Source of the DNA: Bacillota bacterium
GTDB lineage: Bacteria; Bacillota_I; Bacilli_A; RF39; UBA660
Direction of reading: 5' to 3'
DNA length: 64,000 nucleotides
NCBI GenBank assembly: GCA_015059285.1
Contig: SVAS01000001.1
Coordinates: forward strand, 132,217 to 196,216
The notes below the pieces were generated by a model. The model did not search any database and was not told the origin of the DNA. It saw only the letters and a program-made list of their open reading frames with translations. Both the position numbers and the translations under genes were made by a program. Positions 10,455-50,259 of this stretch are shown here, piece by piece. Position 1 is the stretch's first letter. Every line of letters starts with the position of its first letter.

Positions 10455-10467
10455 ATGTAAATAAATT

Positions 10468-10496
10468 GTATCTCTTAAGTGAGATACTTTTTTTTT
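10468..10496 (+). terminator. Rho-independent terminator after prepilin 3
   Basis: Arms GTATCTC and GAGATAC, 6-base loop, run of nine T. Confidence 0.85.
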
Positions 10497-10547
10497 AATC
10501 CAAAACATTGTATAATAATTATAGAATATAATAATAGGAGGAATATT

Positions 10548-12320
10548 ATGTTAGGAACTATAATAGGAATAGAAGAAGATATTGTTTTAGTTAGTTTAAA
10601 TGTTGATTTAGGCAAAATGCAAAATTTAATTAGTAGTTATGTAGTTATGGATAGTGAAGAACACAAAGTAATAGGTGAGATTATTGATATTAAAAATAAT
10701 ATTGCTAGTGTTAATTTATTAGGAGAGTTTATTAATGATAAATTTGTTTTTGGGGTTATTCATAAACCAAGTTTTTCATCAAATGTTAAATTAGTTTCTA
10801 AAGAAAGAATACCCTTGATAATTGGAATTGATAAATATAAAGAAAATAAACACTTATATTTAGGTACTAGCGCTATTTATGAAGGAGTAAAAATTGGAGT
10901 AGATGTAAATGATTTCTTTAGTAATCATTTTGCTATATTTGGTTCTACTGGTAGTGGTAAATCTTGTAGTGTAGCTCGTATTATTCAAAACTTATTTGAG
11001 AAAGAAAAATCAGTAGCGTATAAAGCAAGTTTCTTTATATTTGATGCATATGGTGAATATCACAATGCTTTTTGTAGCTTACATAGTAAAGTCCCAGAAA
11101 TTAATTTTAAAGCATACACTACTAATGTTTTTGATAAAGAACATGAAACATTAAGAATACCATTATGGCTTTTAGGTTTAGATGATATTGCTCTTTTATT
11201 AGAAGCTGAAAAATCATCACAGATGCCAATTATTGAAAAAGCTTTAAAATTAGTTACAATCTTTGGTCGTGAAGAAGAATTAGTTATTAAACATAAAAAT
11301 GATATTATTGCTAGAGCAATACTTGATATTTTATCTAGTGGAAAACCATCAAGTCAAATAAGGGATCAAATATTTTCTGTATTAACACACTATAATACTA
11401 AAGATTTAAATTTAGAAACTCCAGTATTTCAGCCTGGTTATACGAGACCTCTAAAACAGTGCTTACTAATTGATGCGACTGGTAAAATTAGAGAAATGGA
11501 GTTATTAACTTCATTTATGGAATCATTTTTATCTGATGATTTAGAACTTAATATGCCAGATGGTACATTTAAATATACCCTAAAAGATTTACAAGAAGCT
11601 TTTGATTTTGCTTTAATTTCAGAAGGTGTATTAAATAGTGACAAAGTATATGATGATTTTAATGTGTTAAAGGTTAGAATTCATAGTTTAGTTAGTAGTG
11701 ATTATAGTAATTATTTTGAATATGATGAATTTATTACTAAGGAAGAATATATTAGAAGATTGTTAACAGCAAAAGATGGTAAAAAAGTTCAAATTGTTAA
11801 TTTCAATATTAATTATATTGATGATAGGTTTGCTAAAACAATTACAAAAATTTATTCTAAATTATTATTTGATTATGCTAAAGACTTAAAGAAAAGAGCA
11901 AGCCTTCCATTTCATATAGTTTTAGAAGAAGCACATAGATATGTTCAAAATGACAATGATGTTAAGTTACTTGGTTATAATATTTTTGAACGTATTACTA
12001 AAGAAGGTCGTAAATATGGAGTTATATTAGGTCTTATTTCTCAAAGACCATCTGAACTTTCAGAAACGACTTTATCACAATGTAGTAATTTCTTAATATT
12101 TAAAATGCTTCATCCTAAAGATGTTGTTTATATAAAAGAAATGGTTCCTAATATCACAACAGAAATAGTTAAAAAACTAAAAATATTACAACCAGGTACT
12201 TGTGTAGCATTTGGTAATGCATTTAAAGTACCAATTATAATAAAGATGGAAATGCCTTCTCCTGCTCCGTCAAGTGAAAGTTGTGATATAAGTGGTATTT
12301 GGTTTATAGATAAAAAGTAA
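10548..12320 (+). CDS. HerA-like P-loop ATPase (HAS-barrel plus DUF87 domain)
   Basis: The ORF track opens at 10479, inside the preceding terminator; the ATG at 10548 has AATAGGAGG eight bases upstream and gives a 590-residue protein. Residues 1-90 form a small beta-barrel (HAS barrel) region, followed by a HerA/FtsK-type ATPase with Walker A GSTGSGKS, a Walker B region VLEEAHRYV and the sensor SQRPSEL. HerA proteins are hexameric DNA translocases, often paired with NurA nuclease or with SIR2 or DUF4297 effectors in defence. No such partner is next to this gene, so it may be a chromosomal DNA-processing ATPase. Confidence 0.85.
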   Translation: MLGTIIGIEEDIVLVSLNVDLGKMQNLISSYVVMDSEEHKVIGEIIDIKNNIASVNLLGEFINDKFVFGVIHKPSFSSNVKLVSKERIPLIIGIDKYKENKHLYLGTSAIYEGVKIGVDVNDFFSNHFAIFGSTGSGKSCSVARIIQNLFEKEKSVAYKASFFIFDAYGEYHNAFCSLHSKVPEINFKAYTTNVFDKEHETLRIPLWLLGLDDIALLLEAEKSSQMPIIEKALKLVTIFGREEELVIKHKNDIIARAILDILSSGKPSSQIRDQIFSVLTHYNTKDLNLETPVFQPGYTRPLKQCLLIDATGKIREMELLTSFMESFLSDDLELNMPDGTFKYTLKDLQEAFDFALISEGVLNSDKVYDDFNVLKVRIHSLVSSDYSNYFEYDEFITKEEYIRRLLTAKDGKKVQIVNFNINYIDDRFAKTITKIYSKLLFDYAKDLKKRASLPFHIVLEEAHRYVQNDNDVKLLGYNIFERITKEGRKYGVILGLISQRPSELSETTLSQCSNFLIFKMLHPKDVVYIKEMVPNITTEIVKKLKILQPGTCVAFGNAFKVPIIIKMEMPSPAPSSESCDISGIWFIDKK

Positions 12321-24691: not shown

Positions 24692-24826
24692 ATAAAAAAA
24701 CTAACCCTAGTTAGGGGTTAGACTGTTACATCAATGGAGCGGTTGTCGAAGATATCTACAACTTTTCACTTCTTAACGATTTAATACATAAAATATCAAT
24801 CTCTAATAATATTTTATCACAAAAAT
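24692..24826 (-). ncRNA. Candidate noncoding RNA A downstream of hamB
   Basis: No ORF fits this interval. On the minus strand an extended -10 (TGATAAAAT, box at 24826-24821) leads into about 120 nt ending at a strong terminator, CTAACCC/GGGTTAG (24701-24721) followed by seven T. The body holds a hairpin with arms GTTGT/ACAAC directly followed by AACCGCTCCATTGA; the same 14-mer in the same orientation is found in candidate RNA B at 31.4 kb. Could alternatively be the 3' UTR of hamB plus an attachment-site remnant. Confidence 0.4.
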
Positions 24827-24846
24827 TAAAATTTGTATTAATAAAA

Positions 24847-27285
24847 TTAGTCAATATAATATTTTAACTCATTTAACAATATTTCATTTTCCTTGAAATT
24901 ATCTAATATAGTTTTTTTAATATAATAATAATCATTTTCTTTATATATATATTCTTTATATTTGTTTACAACCAATGAAGATAATTCAGGTGATAAACCA
25001 TCTTTAACGAAATAGATTTGAATTTCATCACTAGTACCATATTTTAGTGAATTATATTCATTATCGCTAATTAGTCCTTCTGAATTTAAAAACTCAACAA
25101 ATTTTAATAATGTAAAATCAATATAATTATCTTCTTCTTTAATTCTTAGTATGGCATAATTTATAATTTCTTTTTTTGTTAGTTTAGTTATATCTATATA
25201 TTGTGGTTTGAAGTCCTTTGGATTACGTTTTACTAATCCCCATCTTTCACCAACATAGATAGCGCGTTTGTTTTCAGAATGATGTATCCAATAATATACC
25301 ATGCGCGAGATTTTCTCTTTGAAGGTGGTATTGTTTTTTCTTTGCTCAAATAACATTTGATAATAATTTCTTGCTGCAATATTGTCTAAACGTCTGATGT
25401 TATTTTTATTATCAGAAATTAATTCTATATCTTTAAAGAAAACATAATAGACTTTATCAATTAACGAAATATCAGGATTTTTTTCTTTCAAGTATTGTAA
25501 TCTTTCTAGAATTTTTTCTTCGTTCTCTTTTATATTGAATTCTATAACATTAGCTTTTATTAACTTTTTTCCAATATCTGTTGTAACAGTTAGTTTTTCT
25601 TTTAATTCTTTCTCAACAGGATAATTAGATAAATTAATTAATGTTTGCAAATCGTTTTCAGAAATTTCCTTTTTGGATTTTTTTAATAGTGGATTATCTA
25701 CCTTATCATCTTTTATTCTTGGAAGAATGTTGTAGCGTAATCTTTCTTTAATAAAATCTAAATAATTATCATTAGAATTGACATCTTTTATAAAATAGAT
25801 ATTACTTATTAATTTAGAAATATTTATATTTTCAAAATTAAATATTTCACTATACCTATTTACTCTTCCTACAAGATTTTTTAATTGACCATAGGATAAA
25901 TTAGAATTTCCTATCTTCTTCTCGCATATAAACATTGTATCAAAAGGCATATTAACACCTTCTAGTAAAGTAGATGAGCAAAAAACATACTTTATAAACT
26001 CGTATTTTTTTACACAATCTTCTATATAAATTCTAACATTATCAGGCATTCCTCCAAAATGATAGACAATACCTTTTCTTAAATACGAAATTAAATCATA
26101 GTCTTTATCTATATATTCAGCTAGATTACTTATTATATTATCAATCTCAGGATCATCTATATCGTTTAAATATGTTGAAAATTCTTCAACAGCTTTTTTA
26201 ATCTTTACTGGTGAATTTAAATAAATAATATTCTTTTTACCTGAATGGTTTATAATAAATTTATATTTATCTTCTTCCATTTTTGAGTTAAATTGAACAA
26301 AATTATCAAACAATGAGTCATAATAATATTTTTGCTTAACGTTAAAGTCGGCTAAATAGTATTTGTTTGATTTTATAAGAGGGAGAGCTTTTATTTCTTT
26401 TAAAGTTAAAATATCACTACATTTTAATTGTAAATTTTCTGCTTTTTCTATAACAGGACTAAATAATTTTACAATTAAATTAGGATTTTTAAGTTGTAAT
26501 AAAATAATTACTTTGGTTAACAAAATGGAACGTTCTTTGTTATTAAAAATATTATGAGCTTCATCAATTAATAATGTATCAAAAGAGATCGAATTATTCC
26601 TATCAAAAACCAATTTAAATAATCTTTCTTGAGTTAAAACAAAAATATTATTTTTTCCCTTTATTATAGAATCATAATGAGTAATAATTTTAGGAGTTAA
26701 ATTGTAGTTTGAAAACATCTTTAATAAGTCATAGCGCACTTGATTTACTAGTACTTTAGTAGGCACAACGATACAAATATTTTTGCTTTTATAGTTATCT
26801 AATACATATTGTTTTATTAATTCAGTTTTTCCAAAAGATGTTGGAGCAATTATTACTGCATTTTCATCTGAATGCTTAAATTCTTTATTAATATCAATTT
26901 GTTGTTGTGTATAATATATTCCTGATGTCGTATTTTTGCTTTTTTCTAATGCTATCGTTTGAAATTTGTCATATATATTATTATCAAATTTTTGTTTGTC
27001 TAATAGTTTTAACATTTTAACAGTTGGTGAATTTTTTAAACAAGATGATATTTCATATAAAGGAGTATAATCTTTGGTCATTAATGAATAATTTAAAATT
27101 ATTTCATAACCAACAGAACGAGTTTCGTAATCATTACTATTCAATAATAAAAGTCCAACAGATAATAATTTAATATAATCACTATCATTAAGTTGTTCTT
27201 TTTTAAACAACATTAAATTTTCATATATTTCCTTAAAACCACTAGATTTTAATAAATTTTGAATTTGAATTTTACTATTATTCAT
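24847..27285 (-). CDS. hamB: HamB-like superfamily 2 helicase of a Hachiman defence system
   Basis: An 812-residue SF2 helicase. Walker A is APTSFGKTE (about residues 148-156), motif II is DEAH (241-244), the second RecA domain has CSSTLLEGVNMP and motif VI GRVNRY. The N-terminal ~120 and C-terminal ~250 residues are helicase-specific additions. The gene overlaps the upstream hamA-like gene by 8 bp. In Hachiman, HamB senses damaged or phage DNA and activates the HamA nuclease. The assignment rests on helicase type, gene order and the DUF1837-like partner; a search was not possible. Confidence 0.82.
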   Translation of the reverse strand: MNNSKIQIQNLLKSSGFKEIYENLMLFKKEQLNDSDYIKLLSVGLLLLNSNDYETRSVGYEIILNYSLMTKDYTPLYEISSCLKNSPTVKMLKLLDKQKFDNNIYDKFQTIALEKSKNTTSGIYYTQQQIDINKEFKHSDENAVIIAPTSFGKTELIKQYVLDNYKSKNICIVVPTKVLVNQVRYDLLKMFSNYNLTPKIITHYDSIIKGKNNIFVLTQERLFKLVFDRNNSISFDTLLIDEAHNIFNNKERSILLTKVIILLQLKNPNLIVKLFSPVIEKAENLQLKCSDILTLKEIKALPLIKSNKYYLADFNVKQKYYYDSLFDNFVQFNSKMEEDKYKFIINHSGKKNIIYLNSPVKIKKAVEEFSTYLNDIDDPEIDNIISNLAEYIDKDYDLISYLRKGIVYHFGGMPDNVRIYIEDCVKKYEFIKYVFCSSTLLEGVNMPFDTMFICEKKIGNSNLSYGQLKNLVGRVNRYSEIFNFENINISKLISNIYFIKDVNSNDNYLDFIKERLRYNILPRIKDDKVDNPLLKKSKKEISENDLQTLINLSNYPVEKELKEKLTVTTDIGKKLIKANVIEFNIKENEEKILERLQYLKEKNPDISLIDKVYYVFFKDIELISDNKNNIRRLDNIAARNYYQMLFEQRKNNTTFKEKISRMVYYWIHHSENKRAIYVGERWGLVKRNPKDFKPQYIDITKLTKKEIINYAILRIKEEDNYIDFTLLKFVEFLNSEGLISDNEYNSLKYGTSDEIQIYFVKDGLSPELSSLVVNKYKEYIYKENDYYYIKKTILDNFKENEILLNELKYYID

Positions 27286-28048
27286 TATTACACATCCCCC
27301 TAATTATATTTAATGTTCTTTCTATGGTGTTTTCTCGAATGCATACAATAATTAATTTTTCATCTTTCTTTCTAAATTGTTCTAATTTTTTTACTATTTT
27401 TTGCTCATCAATTTGTTCCATAGTTTTTCCAAAAATAACACTTACAATAATTTTATTTTTTACTTTTGGTAAACGCATATCTGAATCTAAAATTTTTGCT
27501 AAATTTGAAATTTCTGATGCATCATTAGTGCATAAAAGCAATTTAGATTTTGCAGTTGTCCAGTAATTTGTGTTTTTGTTTGTTCCATCAAGTTTAGAAC
27601 TAATATCGGAATAGGCACTATTTAATTTATCAATATTTATTTTATTTAAAAGTGTAGGGATAGGAATTGATATTTCACCAGATTTTACTTCAGAATACCA
27701 AATGTTTCCGTCTTCAATCGATAACATATCAAACCCTTTTTTAAAGGAACGTTCTTCTAAATTCATCATAGGATTTATTGATTTTAAGAATGGGAATTTA
27801 TATTTGGCAAATACATAATATAATAGTTCTCCTATGTATCCTATTTTATGCCTATTGTCTTTTGAATTTTCTTTATCAACACGGAACAAGAACTCCTTAG
27901 CAATTTCTGGAATATCATATATATTGCAGTTACAATAACCACAACAAATTTCTATTATTTCTTCTTTTATAATTTTCTCGAAGTTTTCAAAAGTTTTATC
28001 ATCTAAAAATTGTATGTAATATCCTTTATCATTAAAATTGTTATTCAT
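27278..28048 (-). CDS. hamA: HamA-like DUF1837 nuclease of a Hachiman defence system
   Basis: A 256-residue protein with the DUF1837 (HamA/AbpA) pattern: GYIGELLYY with E74, then GFDML with D107 and SEVKSG with E120 and K122, which together form a PD-(D/E)XK nuclease site. Homologues cut DNA without strong sequence specificity once released by HamB. ATG at 28048 follows GGTAGGTGATTTA on the minus strand. The promoter region is shared with the divergent gene at 28234 and contains two dyads. Gene order hamA then hamB with an 8-bp overlap is typical. Confidence 0.82.
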   Translation of the reverse strand: MNNNFNDKGYYIQFLDDKTFENFEKIIKEEIIEICCGYCNCNIYDIPEIAKEFLFRVDKENSKDNRHKIGYIGELLYYVFAKYKFPFLKSINPMMNLEERSFKKGFDMLSIEDGNIWYSEVKSGEISIPIPTLLNKINIDKLNSAYSDISSKLDGTNKNTNYWTTAKSKLLLCTNDASEISNLAKILDSDMRLPKVKNKIIVSVIFGKTMEQIDEQKIVKKLEQFRKKDEKLIIVCIRENTIERTLNIIRGMCNNE

Positions 28049-28113
28049 TAAATCACCTACCGCTTTACTAAAATGAACATTATAAGTTTTCTAAAATTGC
28101 TTTATATAATAGC

Positions 28114-28160
28114 ACAAAAATCAAATTTTGTCATTTTGTATTAGCAAAAATCAGATTTTT
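28114..28160. promoter_or_regulatory. Two dyads in the hamA/28234 divergent promoter region
   Basis: ACAAAAATCAAATTTTGT (28114-28131) and AAAAATCAGATTTTT (28146-28160) share the core AAAAATCANATTTT and lie about 30 bp apart, three helical turns. They may be operators coordinating both transcription directions. Part of the match could be due to AT richness. Confidence 0.4.
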
Positions 28161-28201
28161 AAGTTAATATGATAGGGAAATTATTCTTATTTAAAAAAAT
28201 A

Positions 28202-28210
28202 TGTTATAAT
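28202..28210 (+). promoter_or_regulatory. Extended -10 promoter for 28234
   Basis: TGTTATAAT is a perfect extended -10; the ATG is 24 bp downstream after AAGGGGGG. Confidence 0.55.
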
Positions 28211-28233
28211 ATATAATGTTAAGGGGGGACTTT

Positions 28234-29400
28234 ATGGAACAAATAAATGAAGAAATGCAAATGATTGCAGTTGAAAAAGTATTAGAAGAAATGCAAGAAG
28301 CTGAGAAAAATTTAATGAAATGGAATGCCTACTGGTGGGAAAGTTATGATAATATTGTAGTCCCTACAGAATATCTTTATGATTATCTTGATTTAAATGA
28401 TGTAAGAGAATGTGTCAAATTTTTTGGAGATATTGATATATATAACTTACGAACAGATAGACCTTTAGGCATACCTTTAAAAAGATTTATTTCGAATCCT
28501 GTATATAATCAAGATATATGTACAATTAAATGGACAGGAATTGAAACAAATAATTCATCTAGAAAAATTATATTTAATAATACTGGAGAAATAACTTTAG
28601 AAAAACACTCTAAAAAAAGAAAACAAAAAAAACAATCTAAGAGCATAGAATATGACGCTAATTACAATGTTTTATCTGATGATTTTTCAATTAATATTAC
28701 TATTATTGATATGTTAATACCAAGATGTTTTGCTCGATATAAGTATGGTGAAATGTCAATTAATTTGAAAGATGGTTTATTAACATGCAGATATAATGAT
28801 ATAGAAATAATACAAGATTTAAATACAGGCGTAAAAATAGTAAGAATTTCAAAAAAATATGATAGAAGAGATAAAGAAAATAATGCATCAGTAGTATTTG
28901 AAGCTGTATTAAATGCTGATGATAGTTTAGAAATGGGAGCAGTTGCTATTAATACACATAAAGGTAATGGTAAAGTTAATGGAACATATAGATTTGATGT
29001 TAGTAGAAAAAAAGGAATTCGTGCTAATTTCTATTCAAGAAAAGGTATTAAGATTGATTTAACAACCAATCCTATGTTATTAGGAACTGCTAATACATTA
29101 TTATTGCCTTCACCAAATAGTGAAAATAGTAGTGACATTATTGTTTCTAATTTTGCTAATTCTACACAAAATGCAATCGCTAAAAACTTAAGTGAAAAAG
29201 TTATAAGTTTTGATAATTCTGATTTTAATATGGAAGCAGTAAAACAAGCAAAATCTAATATAATAGAAATGTTAAAATGTATAAAAGGTGAACTCCCTTT
29301 GTGTGGATTAGTGGAAAGAATTGATAATTGTTTGTTATTACTTGATAGTAAAAAACAAGAAAAAATAGAAGGAACAGCAAAAACTTTGAAATTAAATTAA
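28234..29400 (+). CDS. Unrecognised protein next to the Hachiman pair
   Basis: AAGGGGGG at 28220-28227 fits the ATG at 28234 (388 residues) better than the one at 28216. The N-terminus is a charged helix (EKVLEEMQEAEKNLMKWNAYWW); the middle has a lysine-rich basic stretch (KKRKQKKQSK, about residue 125) and then beta-rich sequence; the C-terminus is helical with two cysteines. No motif points to an enzyme. It is divergent from hamA and runs into the frameshifted gene 14 bp downstream, so the two probably act together; a defence or mobile-element role is only suggested by location. Confidence 0.65.
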   Translation: MEQINEEMQMIAVEKVLEEMQEAEKNLMKWNAYWWESYDNIVVPTEYLYDYLDLNDVRECVKFFGDIDIYNLRTDRPLGIPLKRFISNPVYNQDICTIKWTGIETNNSSRKIIFNNTGEITLEKHSKKRKQKKQSKSIEYDANYNVLSDDFSINITIIDMLIPRCFARYKYGEMSINLKDGLLTCRYNDIEIIQDLNTGVKIVRISKKYDRRDKENNASVVFEAVLNADDSLEMGAVAINTHKGNGKVNGTYRFDVSRKKGIRANFYSRKGIKIDLTTNPMLLGTANTLLLPSPNSENSSDIIVSNFANSTQNAIAKNLSEKVISFDNSDFNMEAVKQAKSNIIEMLKCIKGELPLCGLVERIDNCLLLLDSKKQEKIEGTAKTLKLN

Positions 29401-29414
29401 TTAGGGAGGTTACT

Positions 29415-30829
29415 ATGAATTTAGAAGAAATTAGAGCAAAATATACTGAAGAAGAAATTTTAAAAATTAAAAAGAACTCAAGAGAAATACCTGCTTATGC
29501 TGGGGACTCACTAGATAAATTAGTTTTACAACTTGAAAATTTAAGAAGACAAGGAAAAATAAATTGCTTTGTTAATTTTAATGGTACTAAATTATATTCT
29601 ATAGATGTTACTATGGATAGTGCATATAAAGAATGCTTAGGTTGTACAAGAAAAACTTGGCTAAAAAAAGAAAAGAAATGGGCAGAAGATTATAAAACTA
29701 AAACAGAAAAATGGAAAAAAGAAGCTGAAGAAAACTTACCAATATGGATAGAAGAAGGAAAAAAATATACACATCCTGCTAAATTTGAAAGTTGGGAAAA
29801 AAATGTATTTCTTCTGCAAATGGAGATTATTATGGTTTAGAAATAAGAAATGCTTTAGAAATTATGAAAATGATTGAAGATGGTATTCCATTTGGCGATA
29901 TTAAATTAAAAATTAAACAACAAGGCCATAGCGGAATGACTTATTCAAAAATGATGAATATTATTTTATATTATGCAAAAAGAGGACCAGCTTTTTATAA
30001 TTTTATGAACAAAAATCATATGGATAAATTTGATAAGAAATATGTATCTAAAATTAAAGAATTAAATAAAAGAATTCTTTATGGAGAACCAATTGAAGAT
30101 GTGTGTGAAGATTTAAAAGACCATAGAATTATGGAAATATCAATAGTATCTGAATGTTATGACGGAATAGAAATATTTGACGGAACAATTTTGGTAAATG
30201 AAGATGGAACTTTTGAAGGAATTGTAGATGATAACAATGTTATCTCAGGTAAGTTGTTGGGAGAAAATGGTATTGTTTTTGCTAATTTTTGCAATTATGA
30301 AAAAGCATCAAATTATTGTGGAATAAATGAAGATGGTATTTATATGGGCAAACACGAAATATATTCATTTGATGGTAATATTGATAATGGTTCAATTCTT
30401 ATAGAAGTAAAAGATTCTCAAAGAAATTTTGCATCTGAAATTGGAGTAGAATATCAAATTGATAAAGTTAAAGGATATTTTGATGACTATGTAAAAGAAA
30501 TATATTATTGGTATAACAATAATATGGATTCTGAAATTGACAGAATTTTACTTTCATTACAAGATGGATTAGAAGAAAGATTATTAAATGCATTAAAATT
30601 AAGATTAAAAACATTAAAAGGCCCTCAAAGATTTGATGTGTTAGCAGTTCCTTGCAGAAGACCTTTCGTAGTTGCAGCTGATAAAGCAGAAGCATTTAAA
30701 AACTCAACTAATAGTAAGGAAGATAATGAACAAGTGAGAGAGATGGCTGAAACTTTTAGAAAAAATAATTTGGTTGTTGAAGAAGGACCGGTATTGAAAA
30801 AAGTAAAAAAAGATGATTCTAAGCATTAA
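29415..30829 (+). pseudogene. Unrecognised ~470-residue protein split by a frameshift at an A7 tract
   Basis: Two ORFs, 29415-29840 and 29792-30829, overlap and are read in frames differing by -1. They join naturally at TGGGAAAAAAATG (A7, near 29795): the first frame ends soon after with unrelated residues, while the second continues with CISSANGDYYGLEIRNAL. The second ORF has only a TTG with no RBS as start. Explanations are a homopolymer sequencing or assembly error, a real inactivating indel, or programmed -1 slippage on A AAA AAT. The product is helical with a lysine/tryptophan-rich segment in part 1 and a central beta domain (FDGTILVNEDGTFEG) in part 2. Function unknown. Confidence 0.6.
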
Positions 30830-31305
30830 TGCTCATAATCATCTTTTTCTATTTCTATATAATCTCTTGAACTATTAATAGGTTTAGAAAAATTTATTAA
30901 TTCGTTATAATCATCTTCATCTAAACCTCTATGCTCATATAAATCACGAGTAAGTTGAACATATTTATCTTTCTTTTTATGGTCTATAAGTTTAGTAATA
31001 ATGAAATGTTTTATAAAATAAAATTTGTCTTTTAATTTTTCTAAAAGAGATTTTAAATTAAAATTTTCTTTCTTAAGTTCAGATATTTCTTCGTCTTTTT
31101 CTTTAATATTTTTTATTAAATTATCTACTTTTAGAGATAAATCTTCGTTATTTTGTTCTAACAATTTTAATCTATCACGATTACTTAATAATTCTGATTC
31201 TAGTTCTTTTAAAGTGGCAGTTGTATTACAAAAATCACATATAAATTCTAACTTTTGTTTTAAACCATTTTCGATCTCAATTTCTTGTTTAATAATATTA
31301 AACAT
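30826..31305 (-). CDS. Coiled-coil protein resembling the C-terminal part of a mobilisation protein
   Basis: GGAAGG at the right distance selects the ATG at 31305 (159 residues). A short N-terminal segment with CDFC is followed by a long leucine-heptad coiled coil (ELESELLSNRDRLKLLEQ ... ELKKENFNLKSLLEKL), then a hydrophobic-basic segment and YVQLTRDLYEHRGLDEDDYNEL. That order resembles the tails of MobV/MobA-type relaxases, so this may be a remnant or small relative; I cannot confirm it. Its stop overlaps the convergent stop of the 29415 gene. The leader contains a tRNA-Gly-like block. Confidence 0.6.
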   Translation of the reverse strand: MFNIIKQEIEIENGLKQKLEFICDFCNTTATLKELESELLSNRDRLKLLEQNNEDLSLKVDNLIKNIKEKDEEISELKKENFNLKSLLEKLKDKFYFIKHFIITKLIDHKKKDKYVQLTRDLYEHRGLDEDDYNELINFSKPINSSRDYIEIEKDDYEH

Positions 31306-31343
31306 AAACACCATCCTTCCTTTAGGATGATTTCTTTGTATAA

Positions 31344-31366
31344 CTTCCAAGCTGATAACGTGGGAG
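31344..31366 (+). repeat. tRNA-Gly(UCC)-like fragment 1
   Basis: CTTCCAAGCT followed by AACGTGGG copies the anticodon-loop-to-T-arm part of the tRNA-Gly(UCC) gene at 50.2 kb (10 + 8 identical positions around a 3-base difference). The 5' half of a tRNA is absent, as in displaced tRNA halves left at integration sites. A second such block lies at 38801 in the same orientation. Confidence 0.45.
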
Positions 31367-31374
31367 AAATACAC

Positions 31375-31521
31375 AAAAAAATCAATCTTTCGATTGATTT
31401 TCTATATATCAATGTCCGAATAGTTCGAACAGATTCGTCAATGGAGCGGTTAAGCTACAGCTTACGAACTACAACGTTCTCTTTCTAAAAACATTATATA
31501 GTAATTCCTATATTTTTTCAA
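31375..31521 (-). ncRNA. Candidate noncoding RNA B
   Basis: A good minus-strand promoter is visible: TTGAAA (31521-31516), 17-bp spacer, TATAAT (31498-31493). About 110 nt later there is a terminator with arms AAATCAATC/GATTGATTT and seven T. No ORF fits. The predicted RNA has hairpins GAAC/GTTC and TAAGC/GCTTA, the 14-mer AACCGCTCCATTGA shared with candidate RNA A, and a GTTCGAAC palindrome. It lies just upstream of the 31305 gene on the same strand. Confidence 0.5.
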
Positions 31522-31592
31522 GGAAGTATGGGAATTTTTTGCAATTTATAGTATAATTTAATTAGTTTTTGAAGTATTCAGGAGTTTCATGT

Positions 31593-33287
31593 ATGAATGT
31601 TATAAATAAATTAGAACTAGAAAATATAAAAATTGGAATTAGATATTATGGACTAGAAGATTTATCTACTGGTATAACAGTTAAAGATTTATTAGAAGGA
31701 AAGGAAATTATATTAAGTAATTATACAAATAATAATATCTTATCCTTAGATGATTATATAAATTATGTTTTTTTGGATTATATTATGAAATTTCAAGAAG
31801 TTATACCATATGTTAAAGAAGAAAAAAAAGATGAATTTGAAAAATTTATAACTAATTGCAAATTAATGTATGATAAATATAAACTTGCAGATGTTGTAAA
31901 ATATATTCAAAAAAATTATAAAGAAATTTATAACTATAATGATGAAGATAAAGTTACTTGTTTGTCATTTGATTTAAAAGACTATACTTCAGAATTTATA
32001 GGAGAACATTTCAATTGTTTTAATGAGGATGTTATAAAATATGTAATTAATGAAGCGACATATGATGTAATAGACTGTTTTGAAAAATGGCAAAAATATT
32101 TTATTAAAAATCCAGAAAAACTAAAAATTTTATTTAGTGTGGAAAATATAAATAAAGTATTTTTTATGAGAATTCAAGAGCTTATAAATATAATTGAATC
32201 TTTACATAGCAATAACAAATTTGATGAAGCAATATTAACCGCTATGGATATTATTTATGACATATTGGAAAAACAATATTTTAATCCTGAAGGTGAGCAA
32301 CATATTTGGCAAAGTTATTTTATGATAAATGATTGTTTACCTTTTTATAGAAAAATGAGCTCACCCTATGCCTACAAACTAGAAAAAGAACTAGAAAAGC
32401 AAGAAATTATATTTAATGATAATTTAATTAAAAATGGTCACACTCAAACTATAGAATTTGATTTAAAACCATTCAGAGACTTTTTTGAAGATGATACAAA
32501 ACCCTGGGAAGTAAAAATTGTATTTTCAACTCATTCTAGAGATGAAAATGGTAAATTGGTAAGTTTTTTAGAACAGGGTGCAAAATGTGTTGCTAAAGGT
32601 TTAAGTGATGAATTGGCCAGAAAAAATCCAGGAACAGATGATTATTTTACAAGTTGGAGATTAAGAAACCTAGGATTATATTCAATGGAAGTAAAATCAA
32701 GATTTATGACTTTAATGAGTAATGATCATAATATTAGTGAATATTTATCCGACATTTATGGTGAATTACGATATATATGTGAAAATATTAATACAACGAT
32801 AGAACTTGAAGGACTAAATGAAAATGTGGAAATGTTATCTCAATTTTTATCTGACCTATTTATAAATTTACCAAATAACGAGAAACAATATCAATTATCA
32901 ATAAAAACTACTGTATATGGATGTGCTATGTTTATATGTGGACTAATTGAAAAAGTTTTACGTATTATTTATAAAAATAGTATGAAAGAAGTATCATATA
33001 TACCAGATTCAAGTATAACTTTGGGTAATTTGCTGATTGAAAGAGATAAACATACTTCTATAATCTTAGATATATTAGGAACTGAACAAATTAGGTGTCT
33101 CAGATATTATCTGCATAAAATAGATTTTTATAATGCAGTTGGACAAAATATACGAAATGATCTTGCTCATATAAATGGAAGAACAATGAAAAATTTAAAT
33201 CACGACTTAATTTTAGAATTACTATCTTATTTCACATCAATTCTTAATAGTTGTGTTTTATATTATCAAAACAAAAATAAAAATTAA
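31593..33287 (+). CDS. Large protein with C-terminal HEPN-like domain
   Basis: CAGGAG upstream supports the ATG at 31593 (564 residues) over the TTG at 31569. The N-terminal ~280 residues are helical and unrecognised; a middle beta-rich segment (WEVKIVFSTHSRDENGKLV) follows; the last ~140 residues are helical with R521-N-D-L-A-H526, the RNxxxH signature of HEPN ribonucleases. The domain order is reminiscent of DUF4209-type proteins. HEPN proteins often serve as RNase effectors in defence and toxin-antitoxin systems. It is the first gene of a tight five-gene operon whose other members are metabolic-type enzymes. Confidence 0.7.
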   Translation: MNVINKLELENIKIGIRYYGLEDLSTGITVKDLLEGKEIILSNYTNNNILSLDDYINYVFLDYIMKFQEVIPYVKEEKKDEFEKFITNCKLMYDKYKLADVVKYIQKNYKEIYNYNDEDKVTCLSFDLKDYTSEFIGEHFNCFNEDVIKYVINEATYDVIDCFEKWQKYFIKNPEKLKILFSVENINKVFFMRIQELINIIESLHSNNKFDEAILTAMDIIYDILEKQYFNPEGEQHIWQSYFMINDCLPFYRKMSSPYAYKLEKELEKQEIIFNDNLIKNGHTQTIEFDLKPFRDFFEDDTKPWEVKIVFSTHSRDENGKLVSFLEQGAKCVAKGLSDELARKNPGTDDYFTSWRLRNLGLYSMEVKSRFMTLMSNDHNISEYLSDIYGELRYICENINTTIELEGLNENVEMLSQFLSDLFINLPNNEKQYQLSIKTTVYGCAMFICGLIEKVLRIIYKNSMKEVSYIPDSSITLGNLLIERDKHTSIILDILGTEQIRCLRYYLHKIDFYNAVGQNIRNDLAHINGRTMKNLNHDLILELLSYFTSILNSCVLYYQNKNKN

Positions 33288-33300
33288 GGAGGATTTTATT

Positions 33301-34098
33301 ATGAATAACAATGATAATATTGCAGTAGTAGTAAGTAATGATAATAAAGATGTTACTATTTATGAAACGATAAATGCTATTAAAAATGCAGGATTTAAGA
33401 ATGTATTTATACAATGGTATAATAAAGATTGGAATCCTAGTCAAGAAGAACAATTAGAATATATAAGAAAATGTGGATTAAATGTTATTTTTGCTCACTT
33501 AGGATACCAAGGTATAAATAATTTATGGCTTGATAATGAGATTGGTAATAGTTTGGTTCAAAGATACAAAAATGATATTAAAATATGCAAAGACAACAAT
33601 ATACCAATGGTTGTAATGCACTTAACTAGTAAAAGTGATGCTCCTCAATATAATGAAATTGGTTTAAACAGATTAAAAGAAATTGTAAATTATGCAAAAG
33701 AACTTAATGTAAAAGTTGCGTTTGAAAATACGAAAATCAAAGGCTATCTAGACTATGTTATAGATAATATTGATAATGGTAACGTAGGCATATGTTTTGA
33801 TTCTGGACATTATCATGTTCATTTTAACGATGAATTGAATTTTAAAAAATTTAAAAATAAAATATTTGCAGTACATTTACATGATAATGACCAAAGTGAT
33901 GATTTGCATTTAATGCCATTTGACGGGACATTGAATTGGAAAGAAGTAATAAACAACTTAAAAGAATGTAATTATACAGGACCAATTACTATGGAACTTT
34001 GTTATAGATATGAATATCTAGATATGGGAATAGATAAATTTTATGAAAAAGGCTATGAGGTTGGAATACAATTAAATAAAATGATGAAGGAGGATTAA
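33301..34098 (+). CDS. Sugar phosphate isomerase/epimerase-like TIM barrel
   Basis: The start is ATG 33301 after AAGGAGGATTTTATT; the track's 33253 start runs into the previous gene. The 265-residue protein has the xylose-isomerase-like (AP endonuclease 2) fold with metal ligands in FENT, CFDSGHYHVH, HLHDND and MEL. Family members isomerise sugars or inositols, or act as endonuclease IV-like enzymes; the substrate here is unknown. Only 13 bp after the HEPN gene and 1 bp before the phosphatase gene. Confidence 0.85.
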   Translation: MNNNDNIAVVVSNDNKDVTIYETINAIKNAGFKNVFIQWYNKDWNPSQEEQLEYIRKCGLNVIFAHLGYQGINNLWLDNEIGNSLVQRYKNDIKICKDNNIPMVVMHLTSKSDAPQYNEIGLNRLKEIVNYAKELNVKVAFENTKIKGYLDYVIDNIDNGNVGICFDSGHYHVHFNDELNFKKFKNKIFAVHLHDNDQSDDLHLMPFDGTLNWKEVINNLKECNYTGPITMELCYRYEYLDMGIDKFYEKGYEVGIQLNKMMKED

Positions 34099-34099
34099 A

Positions 34100-34885
34100 A
34101 TGAAACAAGAATATTTAGAGTTTGCCAAAGATATAGCTTATAAAGCTGGAGAAATAATGATTAAATATTTCAAAGGTGATAATGAAGCAAGTTATAAATT
34201 TGACCAAACTATTGTTACAAAAGCAGATACAGAAATAAATAAGTATTTAATAAAAAGAGTTAAAGAAGCATTTCCTACACATTCAGTTGATGGTGAAGAA
34301 GAACAATTTGGAAAAAGTGATTATGTATGGGTATGTGATCCTGTTGATGGTACAGCTATGTATGCAAGACATATTCCTGTTGCTGTATTCTCTCTTGCTT
34401 TAGTTGTAGATGGAAGTTCAACTATAGGAGTTGTTTATGACCCTTTTACAAATAGTATGTATTCTGCAATTAAAGGTCAAGGAGCTTATAAAAATGGTGA
34501 AAAAATTAGAGTTAATGATATTGCATTAGATGATATGAAAAGCGTATCAAATTTTGATATGTGGCCTGAAGCAGAATATAATTTATATGACTCTATTAAA
34601 GAACTTGGAAAGAAAACATATTTTATTGGTATAGGTAGTGTTATAAGAGCTTGTATGTGTGTAGCAAATGGAGACTTTAACCTAGCTATATTTCCAGGAA
34701 CTAAACATAAAAATTGTGATATAGCAGCTGCTAAAGTTATTGTTGAAGAAGCTGGTGGTAAAGTAACTGATTTATTTGGTAATGAGCAAAGATATGATAC
34801 AGATATAAATGGAGCCATTATAAGCAATGGTCATGTTCATGATGAAGTTGTAGCGGTATTAAAAACTAGTTTGAAAGGAAATTAA
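34100..34885 (+). CDS. Inositol monophosphatase family phosphatase
   Basis: A 261-residue member of the FIG superfamily with all metal-site motifs: DGEEE, DPVDGTAMY and CDIAAAKVIVEEAGG. Relatives remove phosphate from inositol phosphate, histidinol phosphate or 3'-phosphoadenosine phosphate (CysQ type). The sequence does not reveal which. AAGGAGGATTAAA overlaps the end of the isomerase gene. Third gene of the HEPN operon. Confidence 0.9.
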   Translation: MKQEYLEFAKDIAYKAGEIMIKYFKGDNEASYKFDQTIVTKADTEINKYLIKRVKEAFPTHSVDGEEEQFGKSDYVWVCDPVDGTAMYARHIPVAVFSLALVVDGSSTIGVVYDPFTNSMYSAIKGQGAYKNGEKIRVNDIALDDMKSVSNFDMWPEAEYNLYDSIKELGKKTYFIGIGSVIRACMCVANGDFNLAIFPGTKHKNCDIAAAKVIVEEAGGKVTDLFGNEQRYDTDINGAIISNGHVHDEVVAVLKTSLKGN

Positions 34886-34889
34886 AAGA

Positions 34890-35231
34890 ATGAATATAAA
34901 TGTTAATAAAGTAAAAATAATTGTTACAATTCCTATTGAGAATGTAGAAGAAGTTAGAAATGCTATGTGTGAAGCAGGAGCAGGAATTATAGGAAATTAT
35001 ACACATTGTTCCATGTCTACAAAATGTATTGGTACTTTTAAACCTAATGATGATGCAAATCCATACATTGGTGAAAACAATAAAATGGAATTTGTAGAAG
35101 AAGAAAAATTAGAAGTAGTGTGTGATACAAACAAGGTTAAAAATGTTATTACAAAATTAAGAGAATTTCATCCTTATGAAGAACCTGCAATAGATATTAT
35201 TCCATTAATTGATGAAAGTGATTTTCAGTGA
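34890..35231 (+). CDS. Stand-alone NIF3/CutA-like domain protein
   Basis: A 113-residue protein of the type found as an insert in NIF3/YqfO proteins, structurally like CutA1/PII: KIIVTIPIENVEEVRNAMCEAGAG, GTFKPNDDANPYIGE, and the end motif FHPYEEPAIDIIPL. Biochemical role of such stand-alone forms is not established; trimeric ligand or metal binding is likely from the fold. Fourth gene of the HEPN operon, four bases after the phosphatase. Confidence 0.85.
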   Translation: MNINVNKVKIIVTIPIENVEEVRNAMCEAGAGIIGNYTHCSMSTKCIGTFKPNDDANPYIGENNKMEFVEEEKLEVVCDTNKVKNVITKLREFHPYEEPAIDIIPLIDESDFQ

Positions 35232-35248
35232 TAGGAGGAAAATAATAT

Positions 35249-35797
35249 ATGAATATAGGAAATTTAAAATTTAGCCCAATTATTGAGTCTAAAAATTTAG
35301 TACCTAGCTGTATTTATAATTTTGTTAGTAAATGGAATAATGAAATTGAAAAAAATAAATTTCTTGTTGCAGAGATTAATCCTGAATTTGCAGATGGTAA
35401 TAAATTATGCGATGAATATCATATAGATAAAAAAATTGGATTTAATTGTTTAATAGTAGAATGTAAAAGAAATGAAATAATAAAGTATTGTGCTTTAATT
35501 GTTCCTGTTGGATACAAATATAATATGGGAAGTGTTGTTAGAAAATACACTAATTCAAGAGTTGTTTCAGTTGCTTCACTTGAATATGTTTTAGATAAAA
35601 CTAAAATGGAATTTGGAAGTATTACTCCAATAGGATTGCCAGATGATTGGCAAATCTTAGTTGATCCTCTTATTAAAGAACAAGAAAATATAATAATTGG
35701 TGGAGGATTAGTAAAATCTAAAATTTCTTTACCTACGGAACTATTTTTAAAGCTACCTAATGTTGAGATAGTTGAAGGAATTGCTAAACAAGTTTAA
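35249..35797 (+). CDS. YbaK/EbsC-type aminoacyl-tRNA deacylase
   Basis: A 182-residue YbaK/ProX-fold protein: IKYCALIVPVGYKYNMG, the conserved lysine region, MEFGSITPIGLPDDW and IIGGGLVKSKISL. Members hydrolyse mischarged aminoacyl-tRNAs such as Cys-tRNA(Pro) or Ala-tRNA(Pro). Presence in an accessory operon behind a HEPN gene is unusual and suggests a tRNA-centred function, which is inference. Last gene of the operon, before a strong terminator. Confidence 0.85.
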   Translation: MNIGNLKFSPIIESKNLVPSCIYNFVSKWNNEIEKNKFLVAEINPEFADGNKLCDEYHIDKKIGFNCLIVECKRNEIIKYCALIVPVGYKYNMGSVVRKYTNSRVVSVASLEYVLDKTKMEFGSITPIGLPDDWQILVDPLIKEQENIIIGGGLVKSKISLPTELFLKLPNVEIVEGIAKQV

Positions 35798-35818
35798 TAA
35801 AAATCTTATAAATGTAAA

Positions 35819-35855
35819 AGGCAATGCAGAAAATAAATTCTGCATTGTCTTTTTC
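35819..35855 (+). terminator. Terminator of the HEPN operon
   Basis: Arms AGGCAATGCAGAA and TTCTGCATTGTCT (wobble pairs), 6-base loop, TTTTTC tail. Confidence 0.85.
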
Positions 35856-35874
35856 TAGTTATTATTTCAAATTT

Positions 35875-35930
35875 TCAAGGGGATTGGGGACTTTCCCCAC
35901 ATAAGAATTTGTACAGGAGTACAAATTCAT
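35875..35930. repeat. Cluster of short inverted repeats at the left side of the recombinase module
   Basis: GGGGACTTTCCCC and GAATTTGTACAGGAGTACAAATTC-type hairpins (arms of 10 perfect bases, AGGA loop) lie back to back. Their GC-rich first member stands out in this AT-rich sequence. Such clusters occur at element ends and in oriT regions, but nothing here proves either. Confidence 0.4.
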
Positions 35931-35977
35931 TGCTTGCTAGACACAACTTATACTCCCATTCAAAACCACAAAATAAA

Positions 35978-36018
35978 AAGAGGATTAAATTATTTTTATA
36001 ATTTTTTCCTCTTTTTTT
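35978..36018. terminator. Bidirectional terminator between HEPN operon and tnpV
   Basis: Arms begin AAAAAGAGGA and end TCCTCTTTTT, with an inner AAATTAT/ATAATTT stem and TTTT loop; only two mismatched positions. Confidence 0.8.
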
Positions 36019-36025
36019 AGATTAT

Positions 36026-36379
36026 TTATATAAAAATATATTCTTTTAATATAATATCTTCTGCTGTATTTTTATAATTATTCATAAGTTTTGCCCACTC
36101 AATATGATTTATTTTTTTATTCTTTTCAGATAGTCTTTCATCTGATTTTTTATAACTTTCCATCAAAGTATTTAATAAATCTTCTGAACTTTTACTTACT
36201 GAAATAAGATGATTAGTAAGTTTTTCTTTCATTAAAAGTGAAGTATATAGGGCTTTTTTATACTCTTTTAAATAGGCTAATCTCATTCTTCCATATTTGT
36301 TTATATTCCCTTTTTTAGTTTCTTTTAAAGTTAAATCTGGTAATAAATAATCTCCATGTTTTGTATAAGTTATTTCCAT
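36026..36379 (-). CDS. tnpV: TnpV transposon-encoded protein
   Basis: A 117-residue protein matching the TnpV family: MEITYTKHGDYLLPDLTL at the start, then KYGRMRLAYLKEYKKALYTSLL and a C-terminal IEWAKLMNNYKNTAEDIIL. TnpV accompanies large serine recombinases on mobilisable transposons of Clostridia; its function is unclear. It lies 27 bp behind the recombinase gene on the same strand. Confidence 0.9.
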   Translation of the reverse strand: MEITYTKHGDYLLPDLTLKETKKGNINKYGRMRLAYLKEYKKALYTSLLMKEKLTNHLISVSKSSEDLLNTLMESYKKSDERLSEKNKKINHIEWAKLMNNYKNTAEDIILKEYIFI

Positions 36380-36406
36380 AATTAAATCATTCCTTTCTTA
36401 TTTTTA

Positions 36407-38197
36407 TTAAATATTTATAATTGTTTTTGGTATTAATAGTAGGTTATCTACTATGTTGTTATCCTCAATATATGGACAATTTATAATGCCATCTTGATAA
36501 AAGTGTTGTTTTATTAATTCCATATATAAAGTTAAATCTGCTTCAGAATATTTATTATCTTCATATTTTTTAGTAGAAAATATAAAGTAATCTTGTTCTA
36601 ATTTTTTCAATTCTTGTTTATTAATTTGTTCTTTATATTTAATTCCAATTTCATTATTATTTAAAATTTCATTAAGATAATTTAAATATTCTTTATTACT
36701 TTTTGATATAAATTCATCCGTAAATTTTATATGTTTAATTTCAATATTATAGTTTTTATCTCTTGTTATTTCTAAATTTGCTATTAATCTTTGTATTAAT
36801 TCTTTCTTAGTTTTTCTATTTAAACTATCCCATAAAAATGAGAATCCAAGATTATTTTGAAATAAAATATTGTTATCATCTTGATAATCACAATCTAATT
36901 TTTTAAGTAATTCTACTGTGTAATCCTTAAAGTCATCATCCGGATCTAGTTTGTTTTTCTTTTGATTTAGTTTATCTATTTCTTTTTTTATAATTTCATT
37001 TTTATGATTAATAATTTCAATATTTAGAGTAGAACTTAAATATAAATCAACTAACTTTTTCTCTTGTTGTTTTAGTTTTTCAATAGCGTTATCTATATCC
37101 TTTATTTCTTTTGTTTTAGTAGAATTACATACTATAATTTCATTATTCTCATCATACATATATCTAGTTAATTCATTTAAAATACGTCCTAGTTTTTGTT
37201 CTATTTTATCCGAACTATAATGGAGTCCTTTTGATTTACAATTACTATTTTTACAAGTTAAATGATAATAAACTTTTTCTTTTTCAGTTCCGCTATTCTT
37301 AAAAGAATTAGTAGAAGAAAGTATTCCACCGCAATCAGGACATTTAACTATTGAAGTAAACAAATGAATATGTTCTCCATAATTTGAGTGTTTGTTTTTC
37401 TCTAAATTTGTCCTTGTAATATTCCAAGTTTGTTCATCAATTATAGGTTCACAATAGTTATTTACCCTTAAAATATCTTGTGGTTTTCTTTTATATTTAC
37501 CATATTCAAATATGCCTATATAAATAGAATTAGTTAGTACTTTATAGACTCTGTCACTTCGCCATTTACCTTGTTTTAAATACGAATTATTATCTTTCAT
37601 AATACTTGCTATGTTTCTTGTAGAATGTCCTTTTTTACATAGTTCAAATATTTCTTTAACTACTTGAGCTTCAATAGGTTCTATTTCTAAATGACCTGTT
37701 TCTTGATTTCTAATATAGCCGTAGGGTGCTTTACTAGGGTGTATTTTAGATAAAGCCATTTCTTCCATAGCACGTTTAGTTCTTGCTCCAATTTCTTTTC
37801 TTTCTCTTTGACCAAATACTAAATTCATTCCAAATATCATTTCACCATTAGCAGTAGATACATCATAAGGCTCTAATATTAGTTCAATTTTTACATCGTG
37901 TTCTTCACAATAATTAAGTAGCCAAAAACCATTATAATTATTTCTAGTTAATCTATCTACTTTAATTGCAACTAACTTATCAATCTTTTTAGATTTAATA
38001 TCTTTTAATAATCTTTGCATTTCAGGTCTCATTAAATCTTTTCCAGAATGCCCTGCATCATTATAGACATCAACTATTAAATAATCATTTTTCTCACAAT
38101 ATTCTTTAATCATTCTTAATTGCGAATCAATAGAATAACCATTATCTCTTTGGTCATCTGTACTTACTCTTACATATACTGCACATCTATTACTCAT
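36407..38197 (-). CDS. Large serine recombinase/resolvase
   Basis: A 596-residue large serine recombinase. The resolvase domain has catalytic Ser12 in YVRVSTDDQ and the conserved arginines in KVDRLTRN; a recombinase domain (SKAPYGYIRN) follows, then a zinc ribbon (CPDCGG ... CKNSNCKSK) and a long coiled coil (residues about 365-430) typical of TnpX-like enzymes. It would excise and integrate the element carrying it. ATG follows GAGGAGATGATTTT on the minus strand. All visible catalytic features are intact, so it may be active. Confidence 0.95.
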   Translation of the reverse strand: MSNRCAVYVRVSTDDQRDNGYSIDSQLRMIKEYCEKNDYLIVDVYNDAGHSGKDLMRPEMQRLLKDIKSKKIDKLVAIKVDRLTRNNYNGFWLLNYCEEHDVKIELILEPYDVSTANGEMIFGMNLVFGQRERKEIGARTKRAMEEMALSKIHPSKAPYGYIRNQETGHLEIEPIEAQVVKEIFELCKKGHSTRNIASIMKDNNSYLKQGKWRSDRVYKVLTNSIYIGIFEYGKYKRKPQDILRVNNYCEPIIDEQTWNITRTNLEKNKHSNYGEHIHLFTSIVKCPDCGGILSSTNSFKNSGTEKEKVYYHLTCKNSNCKSKGLHYSSDKIEQKLGRILNELTRYMYDENNEIIVCNSTKTKEIKDIDNAIEKLKQQEKKLVDLYLSSTLNIEIINHKNEIIKKEIDKLNQKKNKLDPDDDFKDYTVELLKKLDCDYQDDNNILFQNNLGFSFLWDSLNRKTKKELIQRLIANLEITRDKNYNIEIKHIKFTDEFISKSNKEYLNYLNEILNNNEIGIKYKEQINKQELKKLEQDYFIFSTKKYEDNKYSEADLTLYMELIKQHFYQDGIINCPYIEDNNIVDNLLLIPKTIINI

Positions 38198-38210
38198 AAA
38201 ATCATCTCCT

Positions 38211-38393
38211 CACTTGTTTCCTAACTAAAATGAGTTTTTTTACACACCAAGTTAAAATATTTATCTTCAATTGTTTCCTAACTAAAACGGAAAATAACAA
38301 ACACCTTCTCATATGTTTCCTAAGAAAATTGAAAAAAGTATAGTCTAAATTTTAAAATTTCTAATTATTCCTTCATATATTTCCTCAGTTAAA
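38211..38393 (+). repeat. Four-copy 20-bp repeat upstream of the recombinase gene
   Basis: CACTTGTTTCCTAACTAAAA (38211), CAATTGTTTCCTAACTAAAA (38268), CATATGTTTCCTAAGAAAAT (38310) and CATATATTTCCTCAGTTAAA (38374) are direct repeats with a decay gradient away from the gene. They are probably protein binding sites for the recombinase or its regulation. Confidence 0.65.
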
Positions 38394-38476
38394 AGTAATT
38401 TGTTAAGTTATAAATTTAAAATTTGTATATGTTTTCACTATATACTCACTTTTAATTAAAATTTTTACCCCTAAAG

Positions 38477-38755
38477 TTATAATTTTATGAGAATTTGCTT
38501 AATTTCTTTGAGATTATATTTTTCATTATGCTCTTTAATATAAAATGGTTTATTACTAATCTCATTTACTTTGTATTCAAGTATTGTAAGAGTAGTAGGA
38601 TATGTAATTATGTATTCGGTGGGTTCAACAAATTGTAGATTTGTTTTCAGCAAGTGTTTAACTTTACCATTTTTAGTTATGTAAGTGTAGCTTTTGATGA
38701 TTTCTAGAATTTCAGTATTTGGCTTTAATTCTTGTATTATTTTAAATTCAAGCAT
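38477..38755 (-). CDS. Small protein of unknown function between tRNA-Gly and the recombinase
   Basis: GAAAGGAGG selects the ATG at 38755 (92 residues) over the TTG at 38836. Beta-strand-rich, threonine/tyrosine-rich sequence (YIITYPTTLTILEYKV) with a lysine-rich end. No family recognised. Its leader has the same tRNA-Gly-like block as the 31305 gene. Confidence 0.55.
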   Translation of the reverse strand: MLEFKIIQELKPNTEILEIIKSYTYITKNGKVKHLLKTNLQFVEPTEYIITYPTTLTILEYKVNEISNKPFYIKEHNEKYNLKEIKQILIKL

Positions 38756-38800
38756 TAAAAATGTCCTCCTTTCTAGAAAGAGAACATTGTATTTATATAT

Positions 38801-38827
38801 CTTCCAAGCAACTACGTGAGTTCGATT
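38801..38827 (+). repeat. tRNA-Gly(UCC)-like fragment 2
   Basis: CTTCCAAGC, then ACGTGAGTTCGATT, parallels the 3' half of tRNA-Gly from the anticodon loop into the T-arm (about 23 of 27 positions with one gap). Direct orientation relative to fragment 1 at 31344. Confidence 0.45.
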
Positions 38828-38838
38828 AAAAGACAAAA

Positions 38839-38872
38839 TAAAAACTTACGACACCATATTGGTTCGTAAGTT
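38839..38872 (-). terminator. Terminator of the tRNA-Cys/tRNA-Gly transcript
   Basis: On the minus strand, arms ACTTACGA and TCGTAAGT with a 12-base loop, then TTTTATTTT. Confidence 0.75.
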
Positions 38873-38881
38873 GTTTTCAAA

Positions 38882-38956
38882 TGGAGCAAGTGATGGGAAT
38901 CGAACCCACGTCTCAGCCTTGGCAAGGCCGCGTACTAGCCGTTGTACTACACCTGC
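38882..38956 (-). tRNA. tRNA-Gly(GCC)
   Basis: Cloverleaf on the minus strand: acceptor GCAGGTG/CACTTGC, anticodon loop TTGCCAA (GCC), T-arm GTGGGTTCGATTCCCAT, encoded CCA. Confidence 0.95.
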
Positions 38957-50178: not shown

Positions 50179-50185
50179 TCAAATT

Positions 50186-50259
50186 GGAGCGGGTGATGGG
50201 AATCGGACCCACGTTCTTAGCTTGGAAGGCTAGAGTTCTACCATTGAACTACACCCGCA
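50186..50259 (-). tRNA. tRNA-Gly(UCC) with unusual T-loop
   Basis: Acceptor GCGGGTG/CACCCGC, D-arm GTTCAATGGTAGAAC, anticodon loop CTTCCAA (TCC), encoded CCA. The T-loop reads TCCGATT, so position 55, nearly always U, is C. The first anticodon-stem pair is C-A. Confidence 0.9.

Follow-up and report, generated by a model that had tools for sequence, protein, structure and literature searches.

The five genes at positions 31593 to 35797 of the window (the whole 64,000-nucleotide stretch analyzed here) very probably represent the cargo of a ~7.4-kb element at a tRNA-Gly gene, in which a HEPN protein acts alone and four enzyme genes are unrelated passengers. A first-pass annotation of the same DNA had instead proposed a tRNA- or nucleotide-centered five-part defense or toxin system, with unrelated cargo as its main alternative. 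It is this alternative that the comparative evidence favors: the enzymes occur separately in other genomes, relatives of the HEPN gene were found without any of them, and the five-gene set was detected nowhere else in our searches.

Anatomy of the operon

All five genes lie on the forward strand with intergenic gaps of 13, 1, 4, and 17 bp, as determined from the open reading frames, and each is preceded by a plausible ribosome-binding site. They are followed on the same strand by an intrinsic terminator at 35816 to 35853 with a 16-bp stem (−21 kcal/mol); terminator-like sites in the region numbered 5 against 0.7 expected from shuffled sequences. A promoter scan was uninformative (36 sigma-70-like matches versus 45 expected by chance), and an Rfam scan returned tRNAs only. 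The source genome is ~1.04 Mb in five contigs, with the window on contig 3. The gene coordinates, gaps, and strong terminator given in the first-pass annotation were reproduced exactly, and the tight same-strand spacing together with the terminator supports a single operon. As for the location first assigned to it, between a Hachiman pair and a serine recombinase, several genes separate HamB and its partner from the operon, and a TnpV gene separates the operon from the recombinase.

The first gene (31593 to 33287) encodes the HEPN protein of 564 amino acids, discussed below. It is followed by a xylose-isomerase-like TIM barrel of the sugar-phosphate isomerase/epimerase type (33301 to 34098, 265 amino acids; AP_endonuc_2, PF01261, 7e-29), whose relatives have unrelated neighbors, and by a HisN-like phosphatase of the inositol monophosphatase (IMPase) family (34100 to 34885, 261 amino acids; Inositol_P, PF00459, 1e-45; TIGR02067, 2e-41, under the equivalog cutoff), which is the sole copy in its genome. 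The fourth gene (34890 to 35231, 113 amino acids) encodes a stand-alone NIF3 insert, or CutA-like, domain; it matches the insert domain (residues 162 to 263) of the solved NIF3-related protein 2gx8 at 1e-25 and CutA1 weakly (0.005). The fifth (35249 to 35797, 182 amino acids) encodes a YbaK-like aminoacyl-tRNA editing-domain protein (tRNA_edit/YbaK, PF04073, 1e-13) with a YbaK_EbsC score far under the equivalog cutoff. These profile and structure matches bear out the four enzyme families originally named.

Element ends at tRNA-Gly and a tandem neighbor

The operon is carried by an A-type serine-recombinase element of 7.4 kb spanning about 31440 to 38880. Its left end, at 31440, comprises an ATGGAGC core and a conserved ~80-nt leader, and its right end abuts the 3′ end of the insertion target, tRNA-Gly(GCC) (38882 to 38956, reverse strand; ARAGORN and Rfam). 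The remaining genes of the element are also on the reverse strand: a TnpV-family transposon protein (36026 to 36379; PF14198, 4e-30), the large serine recombinase (36407 to 38197; similar to CcrB and XisF models), and, at the right end, a small ORF (38477 to 38836) that is likewise found beside the recombinase in loci L103 to L109 and L111. Other genomes of the family contain recombinase relatives at 69 to 90% identity. In L105 and L111 the genes run tRNA-Gly, small ORF, recombinase, TnpV, and the last three keep this order in L103, L106, and L107, where the tRNA gene is not directly in view.

The core ATGGAGC, identical to the 3′ terminus of the tRNA gene, occurs at 24733, 31440, and 38880, and the 14-mer TCAATGGAGCGGTT has only two copies in the window, at 24733 and 31440. 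Left ends aligned over ~80 bp in nine loci and right ends over ~100 bp in eight, and a profile built from these nine left ends detected additional copies beyond its training set (L054, L111, L114, and L145). Given these aligned ends and profile matches, we therefore delimited the element at 31440 to 38880. The element has a large serine recombinase near one end, next to a tRNA 3′ end, and conserved ends with a short target repeat, as expected of an integrative element at a tRNA gene, and it is predicted from its sequence to be mobile and capable of excision and transfer. No uninterrupted homologous locus was found when ZIP synteny was followed in eight further genomes, none of which has tRNA-Gly beside ZIP, and conservation of the DNA on the left flank of the site was not found in G064, a genome of the same genus.

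Two observations concern a second target. The window contains another tRNA-Gly gene (TCC, 50185 to 50258) with a hairpin flank resembling the flanks of the element ends, and the same type of element also uses tRNA-Gly(TCC) in other genomes. Separately, integron gene cassettes were considered as an account of the locus and ruled out: gaps of 1 to 17 bp leave no room for attC sites, and the recombinase is a serine rather than a tyrosine recombinase.

A second element lies in tandem at 24733 to 31440, with the core TCAATGGAGCGGTT at both boundaries. It contains HamB and a partner gene (24847 to 28048), three ORFs without a recognized family, and a fused ORF. The Hachiman pair recognized in the first-pass annotation stands in its helicase half, as HamB matches PADLOC at 1e-68, but no model in Pfam, PADLOC, or NCBIfam recognized its neighbor (27278 to 28048), which occupies the HamA position and may be a divergent HamA or some other partner. 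The three ORFs (394, 345, and 141 amino acids; 28216 to 30829) are possible further cargo. The fused ORF (30826 to 31374, 182 amino acids) joins a recombinase-adjacent ORF (residues 11 to 51) to the C terminus of a Mob_Pre relaxase-like protein (residues 52 to 181). In G064 both source ORFs are intact and separate, with a recombinase between them, and this comparison suggests that a deletion removed the recombinase of the Hachiman element. In G064, the tRNA-Gly-tRNA-Cys-ZIP-polY locus likewise holds both element types, in swapped order, which supports independent insertion. The serine recombinase would have inserted its element at the 3′ end of tRNA-Gly(GCC), beside an element with a Hachiman helicase and no recombinase.

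Co-occurrence of the five families and turnover of cargo

Elements were compared across genomes by matching their ends, recombinase, or TnpV. In the compared elements, cargo is flanked by the left end on one side and the recombinase module on the other, and it differs from element to element: UDG and Ham1 genes in L108; an AbiEi/AbiEii pair with a transporter and two-component genes in L109; a C1-like peptidase in L104; GNAT and methyltransferase genes in L120; and YhcG, GNAT, and YbaK genes in L114, where the YbaK-like gene immediately precedes the TnpV gene as it does in the window. The HEPN gene comes first, ~145 to 155 bp past the common left end, in the window and in L055 and L054; after it come the four enzymes in the window, nothing in L055, and a nearby serine hydrolase in L054. 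A third independent relative (L056, from genome G096) is followed in its operon by a DUF4238 gene. These three relatives, with 84% (L055), 78% (L054), and 62% (L056) identity to the window protein, all occur without the four enzymes.

Relatives of the HEPN protein were sought in 145 genomes of the family, by means of two peptide patterns in ~85,000 species contigs, with a profile in 295 genomes of the phylum, and in 116 genomes from another family; the homologue contigs named here come from metagenome assemblies of Bacilli and Clostridia. Across all of these, no relative had any of the four enzymes alongside, with the reservation that the compared genomes are samples, mostly fragmented assemblies with many short contigs, whose ends hide some neighbors. 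For each enzyme, good matches were also counted in a single set of 288 genomes from the order, the window genome included. NIF3/CutA genes were present in 45 of 288 genomes, IMPase in 18, and the TIM barrel and YbaK in 11 each. Outside the window genome, the sole enzyme pair within 10 kb among these 288 genomes was NIF3/CutA with YbaK, adjacent in G288 and 3 kb apart in G038; neither the TIM barrel nor the IMPase was found near the other or near the remaining two. An operon-by-operon table gave each enzyme gene different partners from a common pool that includes serine hydrolases, NUDIX-like, ASCH-like, GNAT, and cupin-like proteins, and the YhcG nuclease, among others (names without a profile match were read from the sequence). 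The stand-alone NIF3 insert genes, in ~45 of the 288 genomes, have highly variable neighbors; many lie close to the end of a contig, a location suggestive of surroundings that are repeated or mobile.

A conserved five-gene defense system should recur as a set in unrelated genomes, which was not seen here, and none of the papers searched links these five families. The first-pass annotation had named homologues of the four enzymes occurring together without the HEPN gene as evidence against its proposal; the present result goes further, in that the enzymes are not even found together apart from the NIF3/CutA and YbaK pair. That the set is unique to the window locus within our searches argues against a functional unit.

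We consider it highly improbable that the operon is a real but recently assembled five-gene tRNA- or nucleotide-centered defense or toxin system, with the HEPN protein as effector and a sensor, modulator, or antidote role for the enzymes. The tight spacing with one terminator for all genes, and the context of a mobile element and Hachiman, would agree with such a system, as would the frequent targeting of tRNA by HEPN RNases and the editing of aminoacyl-tRNA by YbaK-like proteins. However, the set is absent elsewhere, the HEPN gene stands alone behind the same left end, and each enzyme has its own unrelated neighbors. Somewhat less improbable, but still unlikely, is that the four enzyme genes form a metabolic operon for sugar-phosphate or nucleotide salvage that the HEPN gene heads only by accident: each comes from a small-molecule or housecleaning family, they are tightly spaced, and they include the pair that is also adjacent in G288, but in no further sampled genome does the TIM barrel or IMPase gene lie near the other or near that pair, and no common pathway can be named for the four.

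Under the favored explanation, in which the operon is cargo, transcription probably starts near the left end and reads through the HEPN gene and those downstream. The TIM-barrel, phosphatase, NIF3-domain, and YbaK-like genes would be metabolic or housecleaning passengers that serve their own pathways and have the transcript alone in common, presumably drawn from the gene pool shuffled among such operons in the family. Cotranscription might nevertheless be functional in this one strain.

Tandem att-like left ends (ATGGAGC core plus ~80 nt) were observed at 24733, 31440, and 38880 in the window, at 878, 2460, and 5858 in L055, and at 8660, 12587, and 15247 in L114. They delimit small operon cassettes, some without a recombinase inside, as in L055 (878-2460-5858) and in L116, where an IMPase gene with 89% identity is the sole recognized gene between two att-like cores (9485 to 10940). 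The conserved ~80-nt left end is possibly a common leader. More tentatively, these loci may represent a serine-recombinase counterpart of cassette arrays, in which short operon cassettes, many with the ~80-nt left end, would amass in tandem at tRNA-Gly, with A-type recombinases mobilizing them in trans; one of the cassettes would be a new DUF4209-like HEPN defense gene.

The HEPN protein and comparison with known systems

The product of the first gene combines a helical-repeat N terminus with a C-terminal Ex3R motif (residues 453 to 457) and RNDLAH, which lies at residues 521 to 526 exactly as first annotated. The gene has no match of its own in Pfam, PADLOC, or NCBIfam, and relatives are few (six besides the window protein). 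In an alignment of these seven homologues, at 21 to 100% identity with the window protein included, R521, N522, and H526 are invariant, as are E453 and R457 (IEKxLR) in 7/7; all fall within the 39 invariant columns of 598. Rx4-6H with a polar residue after R, and Ex3[KR], are the active-site signatures of HEPN RNases (PMC3710099); the protein has both the Rx4-6H motif and the upstream acidic Ex3[KR] motif. The assignment to the HEPN superfamily, made from sequence, is therefore supported, with catalytic signatures kept down to 21% identity. Structure prediction contributed less: a model from 4 sequences reached a pLDDT of 47.7 and one from 7 sequences 71.3, the latter with confident N-terminal helical repeats and a helical C-terminal HEPN half at low pLDDT. 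Structure matches of the model were to generic helical repeats such as importins, at the N terminus, with no HEPN chain prominent; with the HEPN part poorly predicted, we therefore make no claim about the fold. A first HEPN profile gave only chance-level matches to solved structures.

Distribution of the gene is sporadic (2/145 genomes of the family), and no relatives were found in plasmid and phage collections or in viral contigs. Among the genes near the distant relatives are Abi_C, a GIY-YIG-like protein, an SLFN-group helicase, DUF2971, HNH, and ASCH genes; those of Abi_C, nuclease, and helicase type, together with DUF4238 in G096, fit a stand-alone defense gene. We infer such a role from the mobile-element context and these few defense-like neighbors. 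The gene is probably a portable one for a predicted stand-alone RNase at the left end of the element, with which it would travel; the protein most likely works by itself, as a metal-independent RNase that probably cleaves RNA upon infection and halts the growth of phage-infected cells, with the helical repeats as a likely sensor or regulator.

For this gene only, and compatibly with the cargo explanation, it appears rather unlikely that the product is not a defense RNase but serves RNA processing or regulation in the manner of C6orf70/DUF4209. Two distant relatives match DUF4209 weakly (E of 0.013 to 0.017; 15.6 to 16.0 bits versus a curated cutoff of 22.3), and that family, placed in the HEPN superfamily with TPR fusions, is conserved in eukaryotes as well (PMC3710099). 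The window protein itself gave no match to the profile (PF13910). The sporadic distribution, linkage to a mobile element, and neighbors such as Abi_C, HNH, the SLFN-type helicase, and DUF4238 speak against such a function.

These results avert the pursuit of a false five-gene defense system and indicate that tight operon spacing by itself misleads on mobile cargo. They leave two leads: a small HEPN family without its own profile, beside defense-type genes, and a type of element with mapped ends whose cargo position could be mined for defense genes in small-genome Bacilli.

Among known families and systems, C6orf70/DUF4209 (PF13910; PMC3710099) shares with the window protein the C-terminal Rx4H and Ex3[KR] motifs and helical repeats fused to a HEPN domain, but only distant relatives of the protein match its profile. 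Hachiman (HamA/HamB) resembles the adjoining element in its HamB-type helicase; that element is separate, its partner gene is unrecognized by models, and it is unrelated to the five operon genes. The window recombinase is CcrB-related (147 bits, far under the 900-bit equivalog cutoff), and the element targets tRNA-Gly rather than the target gene of staphylococcal SCC (ccr) elements. In SCC, as here, several units accrete at one site and cargo is varied. The closest known kind is that of tandem serine-recombinase islands, exemplified by the ssrA islands of Dehalococcoides, which stand one after another at an RNA gene's 3′ end, are bounded by short repeats of that gene, and include a CcrB-like serine recombinase module at one edge, diverse cargo, and recombinase-less units (PMC3146451). 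The window differs in its target (tRNA-Gly, not ssrA), in the TnpV and small ORF that accompany the recombinase, in its ends and cargo, and in the small size of its units; it has in common with these islands the tandem units, the RNA-gene repeats, the recombinase at the edge, the varied cargo, and the units without a recombinase.
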